51,105 nucleotides of DNA, from assembly GCA_903891095.1 (NCBI GenBank), contig CAITDI010000104.1, positions 1 to 51,105 on the forward strand. The letters are read 5' to 3'. Source of the DNA: an uncultured bacterium (lineage in GTDB: Bacteria > Planctomycetota > Phycisphaerae > Phycisphaerales > SM1A02). The first letter of the stretch is position 1, and every line of letters starts with the position of its first letter. The position numbers were made by a program, and so were the translations under genes. Below are positions 47,676 through 50,600 of this stretch, piece by piece. Below the pieces are notes generated by a model that was not told the origin of the DNA, ran no database searches, and saw only the letters and a program-made list of their open reading frames with translations.

Positions 47676-50600
47676 ATGACCACCATGAAGATGACCCGCA
47701 TGTCGCCGCGCACGATCCTTGCCGCGTTCCTCCTCGCGTTTGTTCCCGCCGTGCCTGCGCTCGCGCAGGACGCCGACGGCGACGGCATCCCCGACGCATC
47801 CGACAACTGCCCGCTGATCGCCAACGCCACGCAGGCCGACTGTGATCAGAACGGCGTGGGCGACGCGTGCCAATCCTCGGTCACCCGCTCCACCGGCAAC
47901 ATGGGCGCGATCGGCGCGGGAGTCACGACCTCGGGCACCCTCGCGGGCGTCGCGACCACCCTCTGGCCGGTCAAGGTCACCGTGCGCGCGATCGGCGACT
48001 TCAATCTCGCGACCGAGTACGCGACGTTCAAGCTTGCGGGCACGACGATCACCACGACCTTGTTCCAGACGGGCGCGAGCGATTGCCCAGCGGCGCCCGA
48101 CACGGCGGTGTTCGTGATCCAGCCCAAGCAGTGGAACGCGCTGGTCGCGGCGAGCGCGGGCGGGAACATGTCGGTGACCATCCTCGGCAACGCGCTCGTG
48201 AGCGCGACGCAGTGCGCGGGTGCGATGTCGGAGGTGTCGGCCACGCTGACGGTCGCGCCGGATTGCAATGGCAACGGGACGATCGATTACTGCGACATCG
48301 CGCAGGGCACGAGCATCGACTGCGATGGCAACACCATCCCCGACAGTTGCGACATCGCTAACGGCGCGCCTGACTGCAACGGCAACGGCACGCTCGACCG
48401 CTGCGATTTCCTCCTCAATGGCGCCGCCGACGACAATCAGAACTGCACGCCTGATTCGTGCGAGTACAAACTCGGCGACTTCGGGCTTGATGGCTCGGTC
48501 GGCGCGGATGACCTCGCGTTCGTCTTGAGTCTGTGGGGAACAACCGACGCGCTCAAGGATCTGTCGGGCGACGGAGTGGTTGGCGGTCCCGATCTCGCCA
48601 TACTGCTCTCGAACTGGGGCGTAACGCCCTACGCCGACAGCAACTGCCCCGCGCTGCCGTGGGCGACGACGCTGACATATTCGCCCGACCCTGCGGTGGT
48701 CATCAACGCCGACTTGCGCAACGCGATCATCGCGACGGGTCTTCCTTGGCGCGTGCGTGACAACGGGACACAGATTGAGATGGTGCTGGTGCCCGGTGGG
48801 ACGTTTACGATGGGTTGCACGGCGTCGAACGCGTGGGAATGCTTTTCCGAAGAGAGCCCAACGCACTCGGTGACGATTACGAGCGCCTTCTACATGGGCC
48901 GCTACGAGGTCACGCAGGCGCAGTGGCTGGCGAAGATGGGGTCGAATCCGTCGTTCTTCCAAGGGCAGGCGGACAGTCCGTTGCGTCCGGTTGAGCAGGT
49001 GTCATGGACCACGATCCAAGGCTTCCTAACGGCGACGGGGATGCAGTTGCCGACGGAGGCGCAGTGGGAGTACGCGTACCGAGCAGGCACGACGACGGCG
49101 TTCCACGGCTTCACTGGTTACCTGAGCGGCACGAACGACGACACGCTGGTGGGGAACATCGCGTGGTACTCCGGAAACAATGGTGCATCGGGAACCCCGA
49201 CATACGGCACCAAGCCCGTCGGCGGCAAGGCAGCGAACGGGCTCGGCTTGCACGACATGGGCGGCAATGTTGGGGAATGGTGCGGCGACTGGTACGGCGC
49301 GTATTCGGCGGGGGCGCAGACGAACCCGACGGGTCCGGCGACTGGGACGAACCGCATGCTTCGCGGCGGCGCGTGGGGCAACGTCACGGGCCGCGTGCGT
49401 TCCTCCTCCCGCAGCTACAGCGCGCCGGGCGGCACGTTCGACCTCATCGGGTTCCGTGTCGCGAGGGCCCCCCTGGACCCGCCGCCGACGATCTCGTCAG
49501 TGAGCCTGAACACGGGGTTGGTTGATGGCGGCATGGCAATCACGATCACGGGCACGAACCTGACGGGCGCGAGCTCGGTGACGATTGGCGGCGTTGCGGC
49601 GACCTCGGTCATCGTGGTGAGCTCGACGACGGTGACTGCGGTCACTCCTGCGGGCACCGCGGGCGGGAGGACGGTGTCGATCACCACGCCTGGTGGCACG
49701 GCGAATCTGACGAATGGGTTCACATATACGAACTTGTCGTACACCGTTCTCGAGCAGAACCCCGACCCTGCGGTGGTGACGAATGTGACGCTGCGGAATG
49801 CGATCACCGCGACGGGCTATCCGTGGCGCGTGCGCGACAACTGGACGCAGATTGAGATGGTGCTGGTGCCGGGTGGGACGTTCACGATGGGTTGCACGGC
49901 GTCGAACGCGTATGCATGCAGCTCCGACGAGAGCCCAACGCCCTCGGTGACGATTACGAACGCCTTTTACATGGGCCGCTACGAGGTCACGCAGGCGCAG
50001 TGGCTGGCGAAGATGGGGTCGAATCCGTCGTTCTTCCAAGGGCAGGCGGACAGTCCGTTGCGTCCGGTTGAGCAGGTGCCATGGACCACGATCCAAGGCT
50101 TCCTAACGGCGACGCGGATGCAGTTGCCGACGGAGGCGCAGTGGGAGTACGCATGCCGAGCGGGTACGACGACGGCGTTCCATGGCTTTACCGGGTATCT
50201 GAGCGGTACGAACGACGACACGCTGGCACAGAACATCGCGTGGTACTCCACGAACGCCGGAAACGTGACGCACGCGGTCGGCGGCAAGGCCGCGAACGGG
50301 CTCGGCTTGCACGACATGAGCGGCAATGTGTATGAGTGGTGCGGCGACTGGTATGGCGCGTATTCGGCGGGGGCGCAGACGAATCCGACGGGGCCGGCGA
50401 CTGGGCTGGGCCGCGTGCTTCGCGGCGGCGCGTGGGGCGGCAGCACGGGCCTCGTGCGTTCCGCCAACCGCAACTACAGCACGCCGGGCTACGCGTACTA
50501 CGACATCGGGTTCCGTGTCGCGAGGGACCCCCTGGACTCGCCGCCGACGATCTCGTCGGTTTATCCCCCTGCGGGGATTTTTTCTGGCGGGACTGCAATC

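Follow-up and report, generated by a model that had tools for sequence, protein, structure and literature searches.

A probable multi-site target of a diversity-generating retroelement that has lost its reverse transcriptase in a planctomycete genome

Known systems and the present locus

Targets with several variable regions (VRs), loss of the reverse transcriptase (RT) and leftover targets have all been published for diversity-generating retroelements (DGRs). What is new here is a clear case, probably in Planctomycetota, in the last gene of contig CAITDI010000104.1 (the window, 51,105 nucleotides, which is the whole of contig C104 of genome G000), with a clear deletion scar and a genus-wide record. 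We read the protein of this gene, a chain of FGE-sulfatase (FGE) modules, as having been written at several sites by a DGR that later lost its RT, so that its loops are probably frozen (rough probability 0.85). Passages of the relevant papers describe several parallels. DGR 4 and 5 of Thiohalocapsa PB-PSB1 have one target with three tandem VR domains, and the local RT is lost (PMC10907252). Treponema denticola strains that have neither RT nor template keep targets differing mostly at adenines, read as leftovers of lost DGRs (PMC4891356). A general census of multi-VR DGRs counts 31 of 271 with several VRs in the same target open reading frame (ORF), and its passages do not name FGE-TIG modules of this kind (PMC6642488). 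Remnant homology between template and variable repeats, with no RT, is described from a cyanobacterium (PMC7517822).

The planctomycete locus is like the Thiohalocapsa elements in the several variable modules of its target, in the lost RT and in the match to the template at non-adenine sites. In the Thiohalocapsa passages, however, arrays resembling miniature inverted-repeat transposable elements replaced the RT, the RT of another DGR can act in trans and diversification was seen in the population (PMC10907252), whereas here the lesion is a microhomology deletion, no other RT was found in the genome, and an FGE-TIG protein takes the place of the vWA-domain sensor as target. The likeness to Treponema denticola lies in FGE-type targets, several per genome; the differences are that those are strains of one species and ours are species of one genus, that the scar is still present, and that one chain here holds several variable modules (PMC4891356). 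A limited look at the literature, by title and abstract opening, recognised no account of a DGR in this group.

Silent third positions and an AAC-rich template

The preliminary description of the window reported that two segments, 49347-49469 and 50406-50528, differ at 24 bases in 16 codons with no change at codon position 3. Both segments are in frame with the ORF from 47676. The 16 codons and the silence at position 3 stand, but a recount gives 23 differences, of which 12 fall at position 1 and 11 at position 2. The 57-base control chosen for comparison has the 10 differences claimed for it, 9 of them at position 3. When the count is run along the repeat, the 104 aligned codons 5' of the 29-codon cores (a stretch that takes in the first 10 codons of the 41-codon segments) differ 12, 10 and 24 times at positions 1, 2 and 3. 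Given this upstream third-position share, the chance of 0 of 23 at position 3 is approximately 4e-8; under a flat one-third expectation it is 1.7e-4. The position-3 silence is thus real, exceeds chance and lies only in the C-terminal part of the FGE modules.

Variable region 1, used as a query against its own genome (3.6 Mb, 131 contigs, an estimated 98.6% complete), returned three further strong places and one weaker one. The strong places are module 2 of the window; C123:2752-2893 on the minus strand, which holds variable region 3 and, after it, a stop codon; and C110:22041-22183, in a separate FGE protein and hence in trans. The weaker place, C123:1885-1954 on the minus strand, lies within a stretch translating as NNNTNNLRSSNRNNNTPDNTNNNIGFRVA. 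This is the AAC-rich template that had been predicted from the two segments, with AAC in 13 of its 29 core codons. A repeat of about 120 bases had been foreseen; the template is present, but it is cut at its 5' side and only an 89-base core can be compared. G000:C69 also matches the upstream part of the template, but this match falls in a different, long frame and was not considered further.

Over this core the template was compared with four variable regions: regions 1 and 2 of the window, region 3 on C123 and the one on C110. Taken together, 71 of 128 adenine sites are changed and 14 of 228 others, the latter comprising 8/132 at C, 1/60 at G and 5/36 at T, with Fisher p values per region from 2.3e-10 to 2.8e-6. 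The expectation that template and segments would differ at adenines is therefore borne out. One non-adenine site is altered in all four regions; the templates of two congeneric genomes, G009 and G001, agree with the variable regions there, so the change is private to the G000 template. The 3' end, ATCGGKTTCCGTGTCGCGAG, is common to the template and regions 1-3 and is a putative homing signal. The target and its parts are as follows, with the two variable regions outside the window added at the end.

47676..51105, plus strand: target gene, 1,143 codons long as far as the contig end, where it is still open; Pfam finds FGE-sulfatase three times, TIG twice and TSP_3 once.
48777..49466, plus strand: FGE-sulfatase module 1 (PF03781, E 1.4e-40).
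49377..49465, plus strand: variable region 1, 89-base core; 22/32 adenine and 3/57 other sites differ from the C123 template.
49479..49724, plus strand: TIG-like repeat domain between modules (NF058597, 38.9 bits, cut-off 30; residues 602-683).
49854..50525, plus strand: FGE-sulfatase module 2 (PF03781, E 1.1e-39).
50436..50524, plus strand: variable region 2, 89-base core; 17/32 adenine and 4/57 other sites differ from the C123 template.
50544..50786, plus strand: TIG domain linking modules 2 and 3 (PF01833 best stretch, residues 957-1037).
50913..51105, plus strand: first part of FGE-sulfatase module 3, truncated where the contig stops (PF03781 at 50913-51077, profile 4-54).
Contig C123: variable region 3; 13/32 adenine and 1/57 other sites differ from the template.
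Contig C110: variable region in trans; 19/32 adenine and 6/57 other sites differ from the template.

All the FGE modules, 1-3 in the window and the one on C123 (C123:2758-3225 on the minus strand, PF03781 profile 90-255), score above the PF03781 cut-off, and the best PDB match of module 1 is 2y3c, Treponema denticola variable protein 1 (6e-30). These profile and structure matches agree with the earlier placement of the variable region at the C-terminal end of an FGE fold, which we take as the presumed binding scaffold. C104 stops within module 3, and C123 starts in the module register at most about 10 bases from there (by eye); C123 thus probably continues module 3. The simplest reading is of three modules in one chain, with more repeats possible, and the proposal of a multi-site target holds in that writing was not limited to a single module of the chain. 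The N-terminus carries a hydrophobic stretch that, judged by eye, resembles a signal peptide.

By mutagenic retrohoming, an RT and its Avd partner would have copied the template RNA, misincorporating at adenines, and in every FGE module, as well as in at least one FGE protein in trans (on C110), the cDNA would have taken the place of the C-terminal loop. Since AAC is the variable codon of the template, such changes fall at positions 1 and 2 and spare position 3.

A DGR remnant beside whole cassettes in sister genomes

Contig C123 (L032) is 3,228 bp long. Its minus strand reads, in order, the FGE module with variable region 3 and its stop, an Avd-like frame, the start of an RT, the template, a tRNA-Arg, a 293-aa protein with no Pfam match above cut-off, and a nuoC-type gene. 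Whole RTs are found in two congeneric genomes, on G009:C215 and G001:C22; they share 93% protein identity and the motifs IGNLTSQ and YCDD. The best PDB match of the G009 RT is 8ub7 (1.7e-40, over residues 45-364), which we take to be the Bordetella phage BPP-1 enzyme. The cassette is like the BPP-1 DGR in having RT, Avd and template. The BPP-1 gene order is avd-template-RT, unlike the avd-RT-template order here. The full order in G009 is target, avd, nucleotidyltransferase, RT, template, tRNA-Arg.

The RT scrap on C123 aligns to residues 11-60 and 55-107 of the 386-residue G009 RT frame, in two reading frames; a 16-bp tandem duplication splits the scrap and shifts the frame. The scrap ends where the template begins. 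C123 and the G009 contig match at 655-1612, 2340-2596 and 3500-4586 with 79-83% identity, and 897 bp are missing from C123 at the RT-to-template step, so that the catalytic part of the RT and the 5' part of the template are gone in G000. An 8-bp microhomology, GCGCGGCG, stands at both ends of this segment in G009 and once at the C123 scar, beside which the G000 template carries bases absent from G009. The DGR RT whose discovery had been anticipated is accordingly represented in G000 by its N-terminal scrap only: RVT_1 has no match in the genome at E up to 1, and RT-body DNA gives only short, chance-like matches there (best E 0.003), one being the scrap's own end and the other 77% identical over 55 bp. 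The reduction of the RT to such a scrap makes the G000 element probably inactive and, in the absence of a complete RT, we class the locus as a DGR remnant with DGR-written targets and not as a complete DGR. The RT would have been lost in this lineage by deletion at the short microhomology, the duplication also shifting its frame, and the present set of loops is therefore probably frozen.

Several points weigh against this reading. The G000 template is itself cut at its 5' side, with an insertion there. The Avd-like frame matches below both curated cut-offs (NF033474, 8.2e-16, 58.2 of 80 bits; PF22296, 2.1e-6, 28.6 of 40 bits), and the RT scraps on C123 have no Pfam or NCBIfam match, their identity resting on alignment to the sister genomes. 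The third module sits on a different contig from the window. Finally, G000 was read from a fragmented assembly alone (131 contigs), without reads, and DGR activity was not observed.

These last points lead to the stronger of two alternatives, in which the DGR is still active, either because the deletion is an assembly fault or a variant of a minority strain, or because an RT absent from the assembly acts in trans. We consider this unlikely, though it deserves some weight. The assembly is fragmented and its completeness an estimate, C123 is short, and variable region 3 equals the consensus of the templates from three genomes at 57 of 57 non-adenine sites, which suggests that it was written recently. 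Coexistence of intact and degraded DGR variants is also described, in the Thiohalocapsa passages (PMC10907252). On the other hand, an 8-base overlap is hardly enough for an assembler to join, the same RT scrap carries a second lesion in its 16-bp duplication, and searches of the rest of the assembly turned up no RVT_1 and no RT-body DNA. The 8-bp junction and the second lesion make an assembly fault improbable as the full cause of the missing RT, and we keep it only as a part of this alternative.

Some further features of the cassettes were noted. From the upstream in-frame stop to the conserved start of the Avd-like frame there is no ATG, GTG or TTG in G000 or G009; TTG codons occur in G001. 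The start regions are as follows.

L032 (C123), minus strand, approximately 2611-2566: start region of the Avd-like frame in G000.
L072 (G009:C215), 1250-1295: start region of the Avd-like frame in G009.

The nucleotidyltransferase-like gene between avd and RT in G009:C215 (L072, approximately 1850-2322) has AbiEii as its best Pfam match (25.9 bits, cut-off 22.5), and C123 has no room for it at that place. A named relative of the RT is found in a Planctomycetota metagenome-assembled genome from Lake Pavin. One scan of viral contigs gave no relative of the G009-type RT, and a phage origin of the cassette was set aside.

Footprints and apparent template layers across the genus

To place the remnant in its genus we draw on 16 congeneric genomes (G000-G015; completeness 78 to 98.6%). 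RVT_1 occurs in four of them and is of DGR type in two, G001 and G009. The matches of G008 and G014 were not counted as DGR RTs, as they carry QGAPTSP instead of IGNLTSQ, a motif difference that we take to separate DGR-type from other RTs; their frames, of 1,333 and 922 codons (L111, G008:C81:48568-52566, and L114, G014:C221:1-2766), end in this other kind of RT, with YADD. Avd is found by profile in G000, G001 and G009. The G000 template has matches of at least 94% only in these same three genomes, other matches being 96% over at most 24 bases, 100% over 19 bases, or at most 92%.

The segments that such a template would have written are far more widespread. Among loci fetched by template match (as opposed to base-by-base genome scans), segments keeping at least 50 of the 57 non-adenine template sites occur in 12 of the 16 genomes (G000-G004, G006, G008-G010, G012, G013 and G015). 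The best segment of G014 keeps 48/57, and none at 50/57 or above was found among the fetched loci of G005, G007 and G011. Over 20 segments from 13 genomes, C at position 3 is kept in 215 of 226 changed AAC codons, weakly so in G004 (6/8) and G006 (8/11), with the G010 segment in this count aligned one codon out of register; a separate screen of 19 segments with at least 50/57 sites gives 205/214. Seven controls below 44/57 sites give 45/89, a small set that includes the target of another DGR and probably two non-FGE frames; three in-between segments, placed in neither group, give 11/13, 13/13 and 8/9. Third-position differences per site were taken over 15 variable regions (G004, G006, G010, G014, G002:C133, the second of G013 and G009:C215 left out). 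In the variable core the value is 0.041 for the 10 pairs from the same genome and 0.073 for the 95 pairs from different genomes; the sequence immediately upstream gives 0.251 and 0.411, respectively.

Many proteins vary in the C-terminal loop of the FGE fold. A second alternative would accordingly dispense with a retroelement and have FGE surface loops under diversifying selection, with a position 3 favouring C or G, homogenised by gene conversion. The alignment does show long near-identical parts between modules, but this explanation is already contradicted, since C stands at position 3 in only 28-60% of upstream codons (60% from 5 codons) as against the 215 of 226, two other FGE paralogues of G000 score 7/13 and 5/13 at the same sites, the between-genome difference collapses in the core, and the separate AAC-rich copy adjoins avd-like and RT remnants; it could be revived only if the C123 template were a near-repeat by chance.

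On G013:C24 (L144, 1-480) a broken Avd-like piece comes after a variable region, and neither a DGR RT (RVT_1 search) nor a template (template match) was found in G013; this locus is a probable second DGR remnant in the genus. Assembly gaps can explain some absences, though G008, G013 and G015 are 95-97% complete. DGRs are mostly detected via the RT, so the targets of dead DGRs are easily missed; here position-3 silence in one gene, with its template unseen, led to a template, a scar and a genus in which footprints were seen in 12 genomes, against 2 with a DGR-type RT. The genus offers a setting in which to ask how long diversity persists once the DGR that wrote it has died, and whether hosts fix chosen variants by RT loss.

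Two synonymous sites of the core appear to distinguish template layers. Regions 1 and 2 of the window read T/G at these sites, as do G001:C15, G001:C18, G008 (two regions), G002:C133 and G013 (two regions), with at most one other non-adenine change. The C/T state is found in region 3, in G009:C9 and in two templates, those of G000 and G009. The chain therefore seems to carry two template generations, T/G in regions 1-2 versus C/T in region 3. The remaining regions are mixed: the C110 region is C/G with four other changes, G002:C197 is T/C, those of G003, G004, G006, G012 and G014 have five or more other changes, and G001:C22 and G015 are T/G with one other change. The template of G001 is T/G too but has two additional changes, and the exact source of the T/G layer is therefore not among the templates seen.

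DGRs are described as often transferred between genomes in passages of PMC8144416. Between G001 and G009 the third-position difference is 0.20 for both RT and avd, versus 0.51 for recA, 0.35 for nuoC and 0.52 for the 293-aa gene. The pair G000 and G001 gives 0.19 for avd and 0.23 for the RT scrap, versus 0.28 for rpoB and 0.35, 0.49 and 0.52 for the others. Between G000 and G009 it is 0.06 for avd, and the RT scrap, at 0.17, is not below nuoC (0.16) and is near recA (0.20). A recA and rpoB tree sets G001 apart from the G000/G009 pair (G009 being placed by recA alone), and the G001 cassette lies away from the tRNA-Arg site, which sits there on another contig, C18. This pattern would fit cassette transfer between species, although the genes compared are few and constraint may contribute. 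We tentatively suggest, as somewhat less likely than its contrary, that DGR cassettes in this genus are hit-and-run diversifiers that pass between species, rewrite loops of several different FGE proteins from one template and decay, successive templates leaving layers in one protein (T/G in regions 1-2, and in region 3 the C/T of a template still present).

The 21 bases 3' of the variable cores (loci L003, L134, L037, L084, L098, L085, L101 and L097) fall into few types that are shared exactly between genomes, the flank after G000 region 3 being identical to that after G001:C18, for example; these shared flanks are possibly a conserved homing or tail sequence.
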